Assembly (NCBI GenBank): GCA_937121175.1
Contig: CAKZKD010000002.1
Location: 1-64,000, forward strand
Source: an uncultured Flavobacteriales bacterium
GTDB taxonomy: Bacteria > Bacteroidota > Bacteroidia > Flavobacteriales_G > Salibacteraceae
DNA length: 64,000 nt
Direction: 5' to 3'
Part shown: positions 53 through 6,841 of the stretch, piece after piece
Layout of the letters: the number at the start of each line of letters is the position of its first letter
Position numbering within the stretch: position 1 is the first letter of the stretch
Made by a program: the position numbers and the translations under genes
The notes under the pieces: generated by a model
Databases searched by the model: none
What the model saw: the letters and a program-made list of their open reading frames with translations, nothing else
What the model was told of the DNA's origin: nothing

Positions 53-550
53 ATGAAAAAAACAATTATAGTAACTGGTCTATTAGCCTTCATGTTTGGG
101 ATGACAAGTTGTGGCGATGGCGAATCGACTCCAGCTCCCGAAAAGAAAACAATGAACTTCGGAGGCACAGAGGAACCTAAAAAAGAGGAAAAAGCTGCAC
201 CAGCAGACATAGGAGACCCTATGACAATGAAAGGTATTGGACCCGTTTCAAGCGTGGAATTGGGTGAGCTTGACCAAGCAATGGTTGCTGAAGGACAAGA
301 GCTTTTTGAAGCAAATTGTACTGCATGTCATAAGGTTGAGAAAAAATTCATAGGCCCAATGATTAAAGGTGTAATGGAAAGAAGAAATCCAGTATGGGTA
401 ATGAACATGATTCTAAACCCTGAAGAGATGATAAAAAGTGACCCTTTGGCGAAGCAAGTTATGGTTGAATCTAATATGGCCATTATGGCAAATCAAAGTT
501 TAACGGAAGATCAGGCAAGAAAAATTCTTGAATACTTCAGAACACTGTAA
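53..550 (+). CDS. Lipoprotein c-type cytochrome of the nos cluster
   Basis: The 165-residue product has an N-terminal signal peptide ending in a lipobox (Cys20, 'GMTSC'), then a charged Pro/Glu/Lys linker to about residue 70, then one cytochrome c domain. The heme site is CTACH (Cys89, Cys92, His93). Several Met residues follow and one should be the distal ligand, perhaps Met103 in 'GPM'. It lies 11 bases before nosZ on the same strand, so it is probably co-transcribed and donates electrons to NosZ from the outer face of the inner membrane or the periplasm. Small cytochromes c are common in clade II nos clusters, which lack nosR. The start at 53 is the first ATG and gives a proper signal peptide. 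The domain is clear; the specific partner is inferred from position. Confidence 0.88.
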   Translation: MKKTIIVTGLLAFMFGMTSCGDGESTPAPEKKTMNFGGTEEPKKEEKAAPADIGDPMTMKGIGPVSSVELGELDQAMVAEGQELFEANCTACHKVEKKFIGPMIKGVMERRNPVWVMNMILNPEEMIKSDPLAKQVMVESNMAIMANQSLTEDQARKILEYFRTL

Positions 551-561
551 ATAAATTGAAA

Positions 562-2523
562 ATGAAACATTTACTAAAAGTAGTTTCTGTGGCAATAGTT
601 GCCGCAGGATTTTTGACCGCTTGCAAAGGTGGTGGAGAGAAAAAAAATGCACCGGTAATCACAGGTGCCAATTCAGCTGCTGAAGCTGCATACGTTGCTC
701 CGGGAGAACTGGATGAATTCTACGGATTTATTTCTGGTGGATTTAGCGGCCAGCTTTCTGTTTACGGTATTCCTTCTGGACGTTTGTTTAGAGTAGTACC
801 TGTTTTTTCTGTTGACCCAGAAAAGGCGTATGGTTTTAACGAAGAAACTAAACCTATGCTTAACACTTCTCACGGGTTCATTCCTTGGGATGATGCACAT
901 CACCCTGAGTTGTCTCAAACTGCAGGTGAGGTTGACGGTCGATGGTGCTTTATCAATGGTAACAACACTCCTCGTGTTGCAAGAATTGATTTAAGCATTT
1001 TTGAAACTACAGAAATCTTAGAACTTCCAAATTCAGGCGGTAATCACAGTTCTCCGTTTACTACTGAGAACACGGAATACATTGTTGCCGGTACTCGTTT
1101 CGCAGTTCCAATTCCGCAAAAAGATATTCCTATAAACATTGCTAAAGGAAACTTTAAAGGCGCTTTATCTTTTGTAAAAGCTGATGTACCGGGTGAAATG
1201 GATATTGCATTCCAAATTTTAATGCCAGGTTTCGATTATGATTTAGCACACTCTGGAAAAGGGAAATCTCACGGTTGGACTTTCTTCACAACCTACAACA
1301 CAGAAGAAGCCCATACCTTGAAAGAAGTTAACTCTTCTCAAAACGACAAGGATTTTATTGCTGCTGTAAACTGGAAATTGGCTGAGAAGTATTTGGCTGA
1401 AGGAAAAGCAAAAGATATGCCTGCAAACTATGCGCATAACTACTATGACGAAGAAACGCATATTGCTACGACTACCATGAAAAAGTCTGTAAAGGTTCTT
1501 GACCCAGCAGACTGCCCAGGAATGGTTTATTTTATGCCATGTCCAAAATCTCCTCACGGAATTGATGTGGACCCTACTGGTAGCTACATTGTTGGAGCTG
1601 GAAAATTGAGCGCTGACCTTACAGTACATAGTTTCGATAAAATGATTGCTGCTATTGATGGTAAATTATTTGACGGAGACGCTTATGGAATTCCAATCTT
1701 ACAGTTTGATGCGGTAAATGCTGGAATGGTTAGTTCTGGTGGTCTAGGACCATTGCATACCGAATTTGACGGTAGAGGAAATGCTTATACTTCTTTCTTT
1801 ATTTCTTCTGAAGTTGTAAAATGGAAATTAGAAACTTGGGAAGTGGTTGACCGTGTACCTTGTTATTACTCTATTGGTCACTTAATGATTCCGGGTGGAG
1901 ACAGTAAAAAACCATGGGGAAAGTACTTAGTAGGGCTTAATAAAATTACTAAAGACCGGTATTTACCTACTGGGCCAGAGCTTTGCCATAGTGCGCAGTT
2001 GTTTGATATTTCTGGAGAAAAAATGAAGTTAATTCTTGATTTCCCAACGATTGGAGAGCCTCATTACGCACAAGGTGCTCATAGAGATGTAATTGCTCCA
2101 AACAGTAAGAAAATATTCAAACTAGAAGAGAATAAGCACCCTTATGTATGTAAGACTGAGAAAGATGCAAGAGTTGAGCGCGATGGAAAGGATGTTCATA
2201 TATACATGACCATGATTCGTAGCCACTTTGCTCCTGATAATATTGAAGGTGTTAAAGTTGGAGATAGAGTGTATTTCCACGTTACGAACTTAGAGCAAGA
2301 CTGGGATACTCCTCACGGATTAAGTATGTTAGGCGCTCAAACTTCTGAGCTTTTAATTATGCCAGGGCAAACCGAAACATTTATTTGGGAGCCTAAAAAC
2401 GAAGGTGTATTTCCTTTCTACTGCACTGACTTCTGTTCTGCTCTGCACCAAGAAATGCAAGGCTATGTTCGAGTTAGTGCTGCGGGAAGTAGCACTGAGT
2501 TGGCTTGGGGATTAGGTGACTAA
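562..2523 (+). CDS. nosZ: Nitrous-oxide reductase, clade II (lipoprotein type)
   Basis: This 653-residue copper enzyme reduces N2O to N2. The N-terminus is a Sec/lipoprotein signal ('GFLTAC', lipid Cys about residue 21) with no twin-arginine motif, the hallmark of clade II (atypical) NosZ. The beta-propeller carries the His positions expected for the CuZ site, including DxHH near residue 113, 'GGNH', 'HGID' and 'HTEFDG'. The C-terminal cupredoxin carries the CuA set: a His in 'PHGLS' and the C-x3-C-x3-H-x2-M cluster at about residues 621-632. A TTG six bases upstream could also start the frame, but the ATG at 562 is preferred. It follows the cytochrome gene closely and ends just before a strong hairpin. 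Confidence 0.96.
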   Translation: MKHLLKVVSVAIVAAGFLTACKGGGEKKNAPVITGANSAAEAAYVAPGELDEFYGFISGGFSGQLSVYGIPSGRLFRVVPVFSVDPEKAYGFNEETKPMLNTSHGFIPWDDAHHPELSQTAGEVDGRWCFINGNNTPRVARIDLSIFETTEILELPNSGGNHSSPFTTENTEYIVAGTRFAVPIPQKDIPINIAKGNFKGALSFVKADVPGEMDIAFQILMPGFDYDLAHSGKGKSHGWTFFTTYNTEEAHTLKEVNSSQNDKDFIAAVNWKLAEKYLAEGKAKDMPANYAHNYYDEETHIATTTMKKSVKVLDPADCPGMVYFMPCPKSPHGIDVDPTGSYIVGAGKLSADLTVHSFDKMIAAIDGKLFDGDAYGIPILQFDAVNAGMVSSGGLGPLHTEFDGRGNAYTSFFISSEVVKWKLETWEVVDRVPCYYSIGHLMIPGGDSKKPWGKYLVGLNKITKDRYLPTGPELCHSAQLFDISGEKMKLILDFPTIGEPHYAQGAHRDVIAPNSKKIFKLEENKHPYVCKTEKDARVERDGKDVHIYMTMIRSHFAPDNIEGVKVGDRVYFHVTNLEQDWDTPHGLSMLGAQTSELLIMPGQTETFIWEPKNEGVFPFYCTDFCSALHQEMQGYVRVSAAGSSTELAWGLGD

Positions 2524-2546: not shown

Positions 2547-2645
2547 GAAAGGATGCTGATTTTGACAAATCATTAATACCGTTTATATAGAATTTGGACT
2601 TCTTCCAAAATCCATAGTCAAAACCTCAGCATCCTTTCTTTTTTT
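2547..2645 (+). terminator. Long hairpin with T-run after nosZ
   Basis: The left arm at 2547-2566 (GAAAGGATGCTGATTTTGAC) pairs with the right arm at 2617-2638, interrupted by a 2-nt bulge at 2624-2625. The arms form a 20-bp stem enclosing about 50 nt, which contains a smaller hairpin (TTTGGA ... TCCAAA). Seven T residues follow the stem. It reads as a rho-independent terminator or partial read-through element between nosZ and the maturation genes, which could set different transcript levels for the two parts. Confidence 0.75.
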
Positions 2646-2665
2646 AATACCACAAACTATTACAA

Positions 2666-3244
2666 ATGAAACATTTGCCTAGAATTTTAATGTTCTTAAC
2701 CATACCACTTACACTGTCTTTATTTTTCTTTCCATTATGGCAAATAACGCTCGAAGCACCACAATATCCGGGCGGAATCACCATGTATATTTGGATTAAT
2801 CAAATTACGGGAGACACCGAATTTACCCTTCAAAACATCAATATTCTCAACCACTATATCGGCATGAAATACATCGAGCCAGATTCAATTCCAGAGCTCA
2901 AATATTTTCCTATCGTTATTGGAGGCTTAGCAGTTTTAGAATTGATTGCGGTTATTATACAAAGACGTTGGTTCTATTTTGGAATTGGTGTTTTGGTATT
3001 TGCCATGTGTTTATTGGGGCTTTACGATTTCTACTTGTGGGAATATGATTACGGGCACAATTTAGACGAAAATGCGCCTATCAAAATTCCTGGAATGGTC
3101 TACCAACCGCCATTAATTGGTAGTAAAATGTTGTTGAATTTCAATGCTATTAGCTTGCCTGCAATTGGTGGTTATCTTTTTATGCTGGCAAATCTTTTTG
3201 GGTTTCTTTCTTTTATATTGTACCCGCTTTCAAAAAAGAAATAA
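2666..3244 (+). CDS. Four-TM membrane protein in nos cluster (NosB-like position)
   Basis: I do not recognise this 192-residue family with certainty. Hydrophobic segments lie at about residues 7-25, 83-102, 106-125 and 166-187. The stretch after the first helix is periplasmic-looking ('YPGGI', 'NILNHYIGM'), and between helices 3 and 4 there is a conserved-looking 'YDYGHNLD' followed by 'IPGMVYQPPLIG'. Its His, Met and acidic residues could bind metal or face an electron carrier, but that is inference. It is encoded right after nosZ and one base before nosL, the place where some clade II clusters (for example Wolinella) carry the polytopic protein NosB. A role in N2O reduction is likely from context only. 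Confidence 0.75.
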   Translation: MKHLPRILMFLTIPLTLSLFFFPLWQITLEAPQYPGGITMYIWINQITGDTEFTLQNINILNHYIGMKYIEPDSIPELKYFPIVIGGLAVLELIAVIIQRRWFYFGIGVLVFAMCLLGLYDFYLWEYDYGHNLDENAPIKIPGMVYQPPLIGSKMLLNFNAISLPAIGGYLFMLANLFGFLSFILYPLSKKK

Positions 3245-3245
3245 C

Positions 3246-3671
3246 ATGAAATTTTTTCTTGGGATTACCTTGCCTTGGCTGTGCCTGCTGGTTGGCTGCA
3301 CACCAGAACCAAAAGAAATACGATACAATTTAGATACCTGCGAATTCTGCCAAATGGTAATAACCGACCCTAGATACGGTACAGAAATTCTAACCGAAAA
3401 AGGAAAAGCCTACAAATTCGATTCGTTTGAATGTTTGATAGATTATTCCAAAGAAAACACACTCGAAGTACACAAGCATTTGGTTACTTCATTCGACCAA
3501 CCTCGAAAATTAATTGACGGAGCAAATTGTTACGTTCTGCAATGCGAGGCCATGCCCAGTCCTATGGGGAGAAACTTAACCGTGTTTCAAAATGAGTCAA
3601 CGGCTAAAGAAATAAGTGAGACTAAAGGCGGAAAAGTACTTCCATTAAATCAAGCATTAACGCAGTTTTGA
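3246..3671 (+). CDS. nosL: NosL copper chaperone lipoprotein
   Basis: The 141-residue lipoprotein has a lipobox at Cys18 ('LLVGC'). NosL proteins bind Cu(I) and help deliver copper to apo-NosZ in the periplasm. The copper-binding motif 'CEFCQM' (Cys32, Cys35, Met37) is intact, and the family signature 'SPMGRN' is present near residue 100. The frame is open further upstream (from 3144, inside the preceding gene), but only the ATG at 3246 gives a signal peptide and avoids a long overlap. The stop overlaps the start of nosD by 4 bases, implying translational coupling. Confidence 0.93.
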   Translation: MKFFLGITLPWLCLLVGCTPEPKEIRYNLDTCEFCQMVITDPRYGTEILTEKGKAYKFDSFECLIDYSKENTLEVHKHLVTSFDQPRKLIDGANCYVLQCEAMPSPMGRNLTVFQNESTAKEISETKGGKVLPLNQALTQF

Positions 3672-4903
3672 TACTAAGAGCATTATTCGTTTTTGTTTAC
3701 CTGTGTTGTTGTTTCTGGTCTCATGGAGCAACCATTGAAACCTGCGCATCTTGTTCTATTAAAGATTTGAGAACCGCCGTCCAAAATGCTCAACCTGGAG
3801 ATTCACTGATTCTGCAAGCAGGGGTGTATCCCGTTCATGAATTAGAAATAACGAAACCCCTTACCATTCTTGGAAAACAAGGGGCAATTATCGACGGCGA
3901 AAATCAAGGCGAAATATTAATTATTCACGCCGATTCGGTAAATATTCTGAACTTAACCATTAAAAACGTAGCCACGAGCTACGTGAAAGATTGGGCCGCA
4001 ATTAGCTCTGATAAAGCCAGCTATTGCCGAATTGAAAACAACAAAATATTGGACACATTTTTTGGAATGTACATCCGAAAATCGTCGCACTTTACCATTG
4101 CAAACAACCAAGTAATAAGCAATGCGACACTAGAGGCAACGAGTGGAAACGCTATTCACCTCTGGCATTGCGATTCTATGCGCATCGAAAATAACGAAGT
4201 AAAAAAACACCGAGACGGCATCTATTTTGAATTTGTAAAAAATAGCATAATTAAAGGAAATATCAGCGAGGGAAATGTGCGCTATGGCCTTCACTTTATG
4301 TTTTCTGATTACAATAAATACCTGGGCAATACCTTTGAAAATAACGGTTCTGGGGTTGCGGTGATGTACGGCTCATTTATAGAAATGAAAGACAATACGT
4401 TTATCAATAATTGGGGACCGGCCTCTTATGGGCTGCTGCTCAAAGAGATTAAAGACGGCGATATAAAAAACAACATTTTTAAAAGAAATACCACGGCTAT
4501 TTACGGCGAAGGCGCGCTTAGAATGAACATTTCAAACAATACCTTTGAACGAAACGGTTGGGCTATGAAAGTCTTGAGCAGCTGCATGGAAAACGAAGTT
4601 CGCGACAATAATTTTATTGAAAACAGTTTTAGCGTTTTTACCAATTCGCCAAGGAATTACAATGAATTCACAAATAATTATTGGAGCGAATACAAGGGTT
4701 ACGATTTAGACAAAGACGGTTTTGGAGATGTTCCGCATCGTCCAGTGAGCCTGTTTACTTACATTGTGGAACAATGCGAACCCGCGCTGTTGCTAATGAA
4801 AAGTAATTTTATTGCCTTACTCGAACTTGCCGAAAAAGCCGCTCCTTCCATAACACCTGAAGCTTTAGTAGATGATAAACCTAGAATGAGACCAATATGG
4901 TAA
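3668..4903 (+). CDS. nosD: NosD periplasmic beta-helix maturation protein
   Basis: The product has 411 residues: a signal peptide (about 1-21) followed by many short parallel beta-helix repeats rich in 'NN', 'GI' and 'xIxxN' turns (about 60-345), the carbohydrate-binding/CASH fold typical of NosD. NosD works with the NosF-NosY ABC transporter to build the CuZ sulfide site of NosZ. The start is taken as TTG at 3668, overlapping the nosL stop; no ATG lies near enough to give a signal peptide, so the start is moderately uncertain. The stop overlaps the nosF ATG by 7 bases. A short 'CASC' motif follows the signal peptide; its meaning is unknown. Confidence 0.93.
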   Translation: MILRALFVFVYLCCCFWSHGATIETCASCSIKDLRTAVQNAQPGDSLILQAGVYPVHELEITKPLTILGKQGAIIDGENQGEILIIHADSVNILNLTIKNVATSYVKDWAAISSDKASYCRIENNKILDTFFGMYIRKSSHFTIANNQVISNATLEATSGNAIHLWHCDSMRIENNEVKKHRDGIYFEFVKNSIIKGNISEGNVRYGLHFMFSDYNKYLGNTFENNGSGVAVMYGSFIEMKDNTFINNWGPASYGLLLKEIKDGDIKNNIFKRNTTAIYGEGALRMNISNNTFERNGWAMKVLSSCMENEVRDNNFIENSFSVFTNSPRNYNEFTNNYWSEYKGYDLDKDGFGDVPHRPVSLFTYIVEQCEPALLLMKSNFIALLELAEKAAPSITPEALVDDKPRMRPIW

Positions 4904-5625
4904 TTGAACTTTCAAATATCAAGAAGGACTTCGGTAAGCACAAAGTGCTCAAAGGAGTTGACCTTAGCTTTTCTGAAGGAAAAATCTATTCTATTCTTGG
5001 CCCAAACGGTTCTGGGAAAACGACTTTAATGAAGTCAATTTTAGGTTTGGTTAAACCTTCGAGCGGTGCTATTACGGTGTGTGGAAAGGATGCAATAAAC
5101 GATTTTAAACAACGAGAGTTCATTGGTTACGCGCCACAAATTGCTCGTTTTCCGGAAAACCTAACCGTGAATGAGGTGATTAAGTTGGTGACTAGTATCC
5201 GTAAACAACCTTCAAACCCAGACCCGTTAATTCAGCTTTTCGAAATTGATTCGTTTCGCACACAACGCCTTAAAAACCTAAGCGGCGGTACACGTCAAAA
5301 AGTGAACCTGGCATTATCGCTTATGTTCGATTCTAAAATTTACATTCTCGACGAACCGACTTCTGGACTAGACCCTATTAATCGGATTCGACTCAAAGAA
5401 TTGTTGCTTGATTTGAAACAACAAGGAAAAACCATTTTGGTTACAACGCACATTCTTCACTTGGCAGAACAGATTTCGGATGAGCTTATTTTTCTATTAG
5501 AAGGAAAAATAAAATACAGCGGGCCCACAGAAGAGTTAATGTCAATGACTTCAAGTGAAAACTTGGAGCAAGCCATTGCCAAACTTATTCAGCAACAAAC
5601 CGAAAAGGAGCAAGCCCATGTTTAA
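4897..5625 (+). CDS. nosF: NosF ABC-transporter ATPase
   Basis: This 242-residue ATPase subunit has Walker A 'GPNGSGKT' (35-42), the ABC signature 'LSGG' (about 128-131), Walker B ending in 'LDEPTSGLDP' (about 151-160) and the switch His in 'TTH'. With NosY it forms a membrane transporter thought to supply a sulfur species or energy for NosZ cofactor assembly together with NosD. It overlaps both nosD upstream and nosY downstream by a few bases, so the whole block is one translationally coupled unit. Confidence 0.94.
   Translation: MVIELSNIKKDFGKHKVLKGVDLSFSEGKIYSILGPNGSGKTTLMKSILGLVKPSSGAITVCGKDAINDFKQREFIGYAPQIARFPENLTVNEVIKLVTSIRKQPSNPDPLIQLFEIDSFRTQRLKNLSGGTRQKVNLALSLMFDSKIYILDEPTSGLDPINRIRLKELLLDLKQQGKTILVTTHILHLAEQISDELIFLLEGKIKYSGPTEELMSMTSSENLEQAIAKLIQQQTEKEQAHV
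5603..5610 (+). promoter_or_regulatory. Shine-Dalgarno site that fixes the nosY start
   Basis: The purine run AAAAGGAG ends 7 bases before the ATG at 5618, inside the nosF coding end. Good Shine-Dalgarno sites are rare among neighbouring genes. This one supports starting nosY at 5618 and not at an upstream in-frame ATG (5555). Confidence 0.6.
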
Positions 5626-6397
5626 CGTTTTCAAATATGTGCTGTTTGATTTGCTGCGCAGCAAATGGAGCATTGTATATACTCTATTTTATGTGCTTTC
5701 CTCTTCTGCACTACTCTACTTTGCCAATTCTTCAACCAGCGCCGTTGCAGGGTTGATGAATATCGTGTTGTTCATTACACCACTAGTTTCTTTGCTTTTG
5801 GGGGTTATTTATTTTTATCAAAACAGAGATTTTGCAGAACTGTTATTGGCTCAACCCATACGCAGAACTCAATACTTTTTAGGAAATTACCTCGGATTAA
5901 TAACGGCATTGATTGCCAACCTTTTGGTCGGAATTGGCTTGCCTGCCCTGCTCATATCCAATGAAACAACTGCATTTACCGAACTTTCCATTCTCATTTT
6001 ATCGGGCGTATTGCTCACCCTTATTTTTTCGGCACTTGCATTACTTATTACCTTGCTCAATGAAAACCGAATTAAGGGTTTTGGTTATGCAATCATTATC
6101 TGGTTATTTTTTGCTGTAATCTACGACGGACTATTTCTGATGTTGTTGTTATATTTTAATGACTATCCACTTGAGACTTTTGCATTGGTTGGTGTAATTC
6201 TAAACCCTATGGATTTATGCAGAGTACTCATTCTTCTGCAATTGGATTTATCTGCACTTATGGGTTTTACGGGTGCAGTTTTTCAGCAATATTTTGGGTC
6301 CACTTTTGGATTTGTCACCGCACTTACGTCGGGACTGGTCTGGGTAGCCTTACCTTTGGCGTTTCTAATTAAAAAAGGAAACACCAAGGATTTCTAA
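5618..6397 (+). CDS. nosY: NosY ABC-transporter permease
   Basis: The 259-residue ABC-2-type permease has six hydrophobic segments at roughly 17-38, 45-65, 90-115, 125-150, 160-185 and 225-250, and the 'LLAQPIRRTQY' loop typical of NosY-type permeases after the second helix. It is the membrane partner of NosF in copper-site assembly. The ATG at 5618 has a good Shine-Dalgarno site and overlaps the nosF end by 8 bases. Its TAA is followed directly by the ATG of the regulator gene, with no gap. Confidence 0.92.
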   Translation: MFNVFKYVLFDLLRSKWSIVYTLFYVLSSSALLYFANSSTSAVAGLMNIVLFITPLVSLLLGVIYFYQNRDFAELLLAQPIRRTQYFLGNYLGLITALIANLLVGIGLPALLISNETTAFTELSILILSGVLLTLIFSALALLITLLNENRIKGFGYAIIIWLFFAVIYDGLFLMLLLYFNDYPLETFALVGVILNPMDLCRVLILLQLDLSALMGFTGAVFQQYFGSTFGFVTALTSGLVWVALPLAFLIKKGNTKDF

Positions 6398-6841
6398 ATG
6401 ATACTCTCAAAAGCTTGTCAACACGCCATTCGCGCTTTAGTTTACATTCAGCAGCAAGCTTCTGAAGGGGAATCAACAATTGGAATAAAAGCTATTGCTT
6501 CGGGCACGAACTCGCCCGCTCCTATTACCGCTAAAATTTTGAAGGACCTTGTTAAACACGGTCTAATTAACTCGAAAAAAGGACCTGGTGGAGGTTTTTC
6601 GATTAGCACTGAAACTGGAGGCACCAACGTTATTGATGTCGTGTTGCTCTTGGAAGGAAAAGATGCCATGAAAAAATGTCCGTTCGGTATTCCGCATTGT
6701 TCCGATGACAACCCATGTCCGGCGCATAATGAATACAAAGTTATTCGCGCTCAAATGACCGAGTTGTTTGAAAAACTCACCATTGAAGAACTCAGTAAAA
6801 ACACAGAAGCCAACAAAGGCTTATTCGGGTTTAATTCTTAA
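6398..6841 (+). CDS. Rrf2-family regulator with three-Cys cluster
   Basis: This 147-residue winged-helix transcription factor has the Rrf2 N-terminus '[15 protein letters not shown]', the recognition and wing region 'GGGFSI' (about 65-69), and three Cys at 94, 101 and 107 ('[14 protein letters not shown]'), the spacing used by Fe-S-binding Rrf2 members such as NsrR and IscR relatives. The ATG follows the nosY stop without a gap, so it is translated with the nos operon and probably autoregulates it in response to NO, O2 or Fe-S status. The ligand is inferred, not shown. It overlaps the convergent asnS gene by 4 bases. Confidence 0.9.

Follow-up and report, generated by a model that had tools for sequence, protein, structure and literature searches.

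The window analysed here, a stretch of 64,000 nucleotides from an uncultured Flavobacteriales bacterium, carries a Bacteroidota clade II nos operon in the order cytochrome c, nosZ, nosB, nosL, nosD, nosF, nosY and Rrf2 regulator. Its genes, and the features of nosB discussed below, are as follows:

53..550, + strand: c-type cytochrome gene, 5' of nosZ (PF00034, 41.6 bits against a cut-off of 21.3)
562..2523, + strand: nosZ, Sec-dependent clade II nitrous oxide reductase (TIGR04246, 912.5 bits against a cut-off of 625)
2547..2646, + strand: intercistronic hairpin and U-run in the nosZ-nosB gap (MFE −31.7 kcal/mol, z −5.94, 0/200 shuffles as good)
2666..3244, + strand: nosB, 192-aa four-TM NosB protein, ATG start, carrying LNHYIGM and YGHN, the motifs given in PMC9697520
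2732..2740, + strand: P-x-W motif of NosB, residues 23-25, at the exit of TM1 (from the alignment)
2834..2866, + strand: NINILNHYIGM, conserved periplasmic helix motif of NosB, residues 57-67 (helix 54-64 in the model)
3044..3121, + strand: YDYGHNLD...IPGMVYQPPLIG, covering the end of NosB's long TM3 and its second periplasmic loop, residues 127-152
3246..3671 (start approximate), + strand: nosL, Cu chaperone family lipoprotein (PF05573, 38 bits against a cut-off of 24)
3668..4903, + strand: nosD (TIGR04247, 421 bits against a cut-off of 300)
4897..5625, + strand: nosF, ABC ATPase (PF00005, 102 bits against a cut-off of 25)
5618..6397, + strand: nosY, ABC-2 permease, named by its place and by the same gene order in homologous loci because its PF12679 score (E 1.7 × 10−4) is under the cut-off
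6398..6841, + strand: Rrf2-family regulator (PF02082, 83 bits against a cut-off of 30)

The nosB start lies 142 nt past the stop of nosZ (2523), and nosL follows directly on its 3' side. The open reading frame at 2666-3244 is confirmed as a real gene: a search of genome contigs recovered 265 related stretches, far beyond chance, the best 80 of which form the basis of the locus comparisons described below. The source genome holds a single copy; a 33% antisense match overlaps the same gene and is spurious. The same genome has no NirS (PF02239), and NirK is under the cut-off; the organism may therefore be a non-denitrifying N2O reducer.

A preliminary description of this gene had noted that it occupies the position of NosB, yet could not place it in a named family. 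The first point proved correct, as the sequence motifs together with the co-occurrence with nosZ identify the protein as NosB of the clade II nos operon, an assignment that we regard as close to certain. The second was mistaken, since the family is named and known in flavobacteria: in Flavobacterium azooxidireducens, a gene between nosZ and nosL annotated as 'hypothetical' is reported as NosB on the strength of LNHYIGM, YGHN and 40–46% identity to the Gemmatimonas protein (PMC9697520). In the window protein, these motifs correspond to residues 61-67 and 129-132, respectively. A Gemmatimonadota homologue with 53% identity likewise adjoins nosZ. The published definition of NosB includes four (or six) transmembrane helices (PMC11388526), and the window protein has four. 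Moreover, the clade II NosB proteins of Wolinella, Gemmatimonas and flavobacteria are described as lying between nosZ and nosL/nosD, as having four transmembrane helices and as sharing both motifs (PMC9697520), all of which apply here; they are often fused to NosL (PMC9697520), whereas the window nosB is a separate open reading frame, with nothing essential differing. Wolinella reportedly cannot respire N2O without nosB (Hein et al. 2017, as cited in later papers). The name is thus not new; the new observations are the fold and the hairpin. As to other family assignments, the match of the window protein to DUF4131 (Pfam) reaches 16.5 bits against a cut-off of 31.6, and an unrelated transporter family, which the preliminary description had named as one outcome that would overturn its reading, was not found: no Pfam or NCBIfam family scores above cut-off, and the relatives show only scattered weak matches.

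The linkage to nosZ is close to complete. The reductase gene lies directly upstream of nosB in 79 of the 80 loci, the contig of the 80th beginning 12 bases before nosB, and NosL is encoded downstream in all 80. Among 392 Bacteroidota genomes, 139 encode NosB and 134 a clade II NosZ above the cut-off, and each of these 134 also encodes NosB. Five NosB-containing genomes consequently fall below the NosZ cut-off: for two of these (G109 and G212), the contig edge falls where nosZ would be; for G232, the contig starts inside nosZ; and for G351, nosZ is split over two frames. This leaves G004 as the only one of 139 without a trace of nosZ where one would be visible. Five of nine tested neighbour genes in G004 (DUF6448, UbiA, Ric, methyltransferase and Rrf2) match the surroundings of the nos clusters of its relatives G055 or G093, and, therefore, its nosB is probably a nos-cluster remnant, or the result of an assembly gap. 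A second sample, consisting of 149 genomes of one class, gave a similar picture: all 51 genomes with NosZ have NosB, and 4 of 55 with NosB are without NosZ above the cut-off, all four being among the five already mentioned. The dedicated, nosZ-linked role suggested earlier from position alone is thereby supported, and homologues common in genomes without nosZ, a finding that was to have counted against it, did not appear.

The association extends beyond the Bacteroidota. In a plasmid collection, all nine records with NosB adjoin nosZ, and four of these are haloarchaeal, with NosZ annotated as Tat-dependent; hence, the role of NosB is not tied to Sec export. When the same collection was searched with the window NosZ, 144 records matched; among the 60 listed, nine were the NosB records, and the remaining 51 were of the Tat type wherever the type was annotated. 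No virus-borne copies of NosB were found in our search.

Several individual loci depart from the usual arrangement. At L092 (4205-10166), a NosB homologue without nosZ has as neighbours a membrane Fer4_5 (NapH-like) protein, Rrf2, DUF6448, Ric (DUF542 plus hemerythrin) and a second hemerythrin protein; this is probably a nos-cluster remnant. At L093 (8877-9440), a genome with a nosZ-linked NosB has a further, divergent copy, with 39% identity to the first; this one is not linked to nosZ, and its neighbours are a SecA-like gene and an Rrf2 regulator. Two NosB copies occur in one of the 117 genomes of the class of G386, namely G386 itself. Lastly, the genome bin G418 (85% complete, 7% contaminated) contains four nosZ-nosB-nosL-nosD clusters on four contigs (L121-L124), which are either real copies or the product of mixed strains.

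The four hydrophobic segments noted in the preliminary description are confirmed by the hydrophobicity of the sequence and lie at residues 7-25, 80-98, 102-120 and 162-180. The intervening loops have few Lys and Arg residues and many Asp and Glu, and the protein ends are rich in lysine and arginine; both loops should therefore lie outside the cytoplasm, and both termini within it. This agrees with the extracytoplasmic location previously given for the loop bearing YDYGHNLD (residues 127-134) and IPGMVYQPPLIG (residues 141-152). Residue conservation peaks in the periplasmic loops and at the outer end of TM3: the mean frequency of the major residue is 0.77–0.99 in the periplasmic parts versus 0.49–0.61 in the transmembrane helices. 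In an alignment of 146 distinct sequences, drawn from 153 that were examined, the near-invariant positions are Pro23, Trp25, Asn62, Tyr64, Gly66, Leu133, Pro148 and Gly152; Pro23 and Trp25 are present in 145/146 sequences (with one gap), Asn62 and Tyr64 each in 145/146, and Gly66 in all 146.

An AlphaFold model based on 80 sequences has a pLDDT of 91.1 and a pTM of 0.83; a HemJ-like (UPF0093) four-TM protein of the window, chosen as a control for the fold match and modelled without an alignment, gave a pLDDT of 63. The predicted order of elements is TM1, three strands, a short helix bearing LNHYIGM, TM2, a 31-residue TM3, two strands and TM4. With VIA-align, all of the 50 best-aligned PDB entries belong to the claudin superfamily or to a designed claudin fold, with Z-scores of 9.3–11.4, and they include claudins, TARPs, GSG1L, MP20, DUOXA1 and the designed fold. 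Helical bundles can reach such Z-scores through arrangement alone, although this is made less likely for the modelled NosB by the uniformity of the match list and by the strands that match. Foldseek also returned claudins, TARPs, GSG1L and DUOXA1, with a best E-value of 1.5 × 10−3 and a TM-score of 0.44. Thus, the structural check proposed at the outset yielded a confident model and, by VIA-align, a claudin fold, but no Foldseek match at E ≤ 0.001. A 17-sequence NosB profile found no PDB chain at E ≤ 10. A claudin assignment by sequence can be set aside, there being no PDB chain match and no claudin among the 25 Pfam families listed out of 26. Given the absence of a sequence match, the Foldseek values and the caution over helical bundles, we regard the claudin-like fold of NosB as a consistent but distant prediction.

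In the model, the claudin layout is present throughout, from TM1 through strands, a short helix, TM2, a long TM3 and further strands to TM4, with both loops outside. The first loop of claudins carries the signature W...GLW...C...C; in NosB, P-x-W is near-invariant, yet the first loop has no Cys. NosB thus resembles the animal four-TM claudin/PMP22/TARP superfamily in its predicted fold (over 131–158 aligned residues), whereas the identity is 5–12% and there is no sequence-profile match; it also differs from claudins in lacking the Cys pair, in being prokaryotic and in being linked to nosZ. Claudin-fold proteins include auxiliary subunits (TARPs) and a maturation factor (DUOXA1). The latter, a claudin-like factor for DUOX, matches the predicted fold of NosB with a Z-score of 9.4 over 158 residues, although it is eukaryotic, larger and 9% identical; it is a membrane protein on which a redox enzyme depends, but its client is a flavohaem oxidase and not a copper enzyme. 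A claudin-like shape proves neither function nor common descent. Our literature search, which covered few subscription journals, found no publication that links NosB to claudins.

Gene fusions point to the company that NosB keeps. NosB and NosL are encoded in one open frame in 7 of the 80 loci. The same holds for 30 of the 139 NosB-containing genomes, representing 16 families; this genome count comes from 31 open frames longer than 300 aa in these genomes, all of which were fetched, 30 having a NosL domain and one being without. Additionally, NosB and NosD share one open frame (~676 aa) in three genomes of a single Bacteroidota family (L118 4151-6181, L119 and L120). An extra hydrophobic segment precedes the periplasmic partner in six of the seven NosL fusions (that of L017 is below the threshold) and in the NosD fusion examined (L118), fitting a cytoplasmic C-terminus of NosB from which the added segment would return the partner to the periplasm.

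The hairpin in the nosZ-nosB gap is a recurrent feature: z-scores of −3 or below were obtained for 61 of 78 such gaps (40–400 nt, from the 80 loci), and for 3/21 nosB-nosL, 4/33 nosL-nosD and 5/22 cytochrome-nosZ gaps. A T-run follows a stable hairpin in only 30 of 79 loci, so that termination cannot be the function of the element everywhere; it may bring about partial termination in some loci, and stabilisation or processing of the mRNA in others. An Rfam search gave no family above its gathering score and a chance-level match only (E 0.45), and a hairpin between nosZ and nosB was absent from the matches listed in the literature search. Internal terminators are reported to set subunit ratios in clostridial ABC transporters (PMC9045158), and a proteomics study of Schinkia reports detection of NosZ and NosDLYF and not of NosB (PMC13274427); this absence fits a low abundance, though it is common for small membrane proteins.

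Overall, we consider it somewhat probable (roughly 55%) that NosB works without a cofactor and in sub-stoichiometric amounts as a docking and assembly factor that links NosZ to NosL and NosDFY; we infer its binding partners, assembly role and stoichiometry. Several features favour this reading: NosB carries no redox motif, and its histidines are replaced in some copies; its fusion partners are NosD and the copper chaperone NosL; its conserved side faces the periplasm; and auxiliary subunits as well as a maturation factor are among the claudin-fold proteins that it resembles. In clade I, NosL is an established CuZ assembly factor (PMC6530538), and NosDFY has an established part in CuZ maturation (PMC7660919). 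NosB would be an inner-membrane protein of claudin-like fold with both its N- and C-termini in the cytoplasm; its periplasmic face would comprise a β-sheet drawn from both loops, the short LNHYIGM helix and the protruding end of TM3 with YDYGHN. This face would bind apo-NosZ and keep it beside NosL, as the Cu donor, and the NosDFY transporter, such that the copper-sulfur site could be built while NosZ is held; NosB may also keep NosZ near its electron donor. The nosZ-nosB hairpin would allow far more NosZ than NosB to be made, as expected for an assembly factor that is recycled.

An alternative is that NosB serves in electron supply, binding quinol or docking a cytochrome or bc complex for NosZ, in place of NosR. 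The literature places Wolinella NosB with the NosG-C1-C2-H module and mentions fusions of NosB to the cytochrome NosC2, and it is these fusions that keep the idea alive; furthermore, a c-type cytochrome is encoded directly 5' of the window nosZ, and no NosR is annotated within ~8 kb of nosB in eight annotated plasmid loci (less upstream in L085). NosR of clade I is likewise a membrane accessory of NosZ, and clusters typically have either NosR or NosB (PMC11409646, PMC7660919); NosR, however, carries FMN and Fe-S clusters, whereas no FMN, Fe-S or heme motif was seen in NosB, nor a match to any such Pfam or NCBIfam family. Moreover, the donor differs from locus to locus whereas NosB does not: of 67 testable loci, only 43 have a cytochrome c gene on the same strand in the 1.5 kb upstream of nosZ, and two of four haloarchaeal loci have plastocyanin-type copper genes near nosZ. 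The fusions found here go to NosL and NosD, with none to a CxxCH protein. On this evidence, a role in electron supply appears unlikely, if still worth considering.

A direct part in binding copper or sulfur species and passing them to NosZ, as the preliminary description proposed for the conserved His, Asp and Met residues, is weakened by the alignment, and we judge it improbable. His63, Met67 and His131 are indeed conserved (138, 141 and 139 of 146 sequences, respectively), and the fusion partners NosL and NosD serve copper-site assembly. Nevertheless, His63 is replaced by Lys, Arg or Gln, and His131 by Thr, Asn or Ser, in copies linked to nosZ, and the copy at L124 is without both. In all, 14 sequences lack one or both histidines, 13 of which adjoin nosZ (adjacency for the genome-search loci being taken from coordinates), the other being the unlinked copy in G386. 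Asp128 is Asp in 110/146, and neither a conserved Cys nor CxxCH is found in the NosB alignment and open frames; NosB therefore lacks the invariant ligands of a copper-binding protein. The view of NosB as a membrane protein or transporter of general function that lies in the operon by chance, which the weak DUF4131 match and the two nosZ-unlinked copies (in G004 and G386) might suggest, is refuted in the samples examined by the near-perfect co-occurrence with nosZ, the remnant-like character of G004, the rarity of second copies and the adjacency of nosZ in every plasmid match.

Returning to docking and assembly, a bolder formulation, which we offer only tentatively, would make NosB a prokaryotic protein of the claudin fold, shared by bacteria and archaea, and the obligate hub for assembling clade II NosZ; it would join NosZ, NosL and NosDFY and be kept at a low level through the hairpin. 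A claudin-like fold would be unexpected in a bacterial respiratory accessory protein and, if this formulation is true, the fold of the animal claudins, TARPs and DUOXA1 has a counterpart in prokaryotes, there too in the role of an auxiliary subunit. Organisms with clade II NosZ are an important sink of the greenhouse gas N2O, and the fold, topology, fusion partners and near-invariant residues described here make the role of NosB directly testable.
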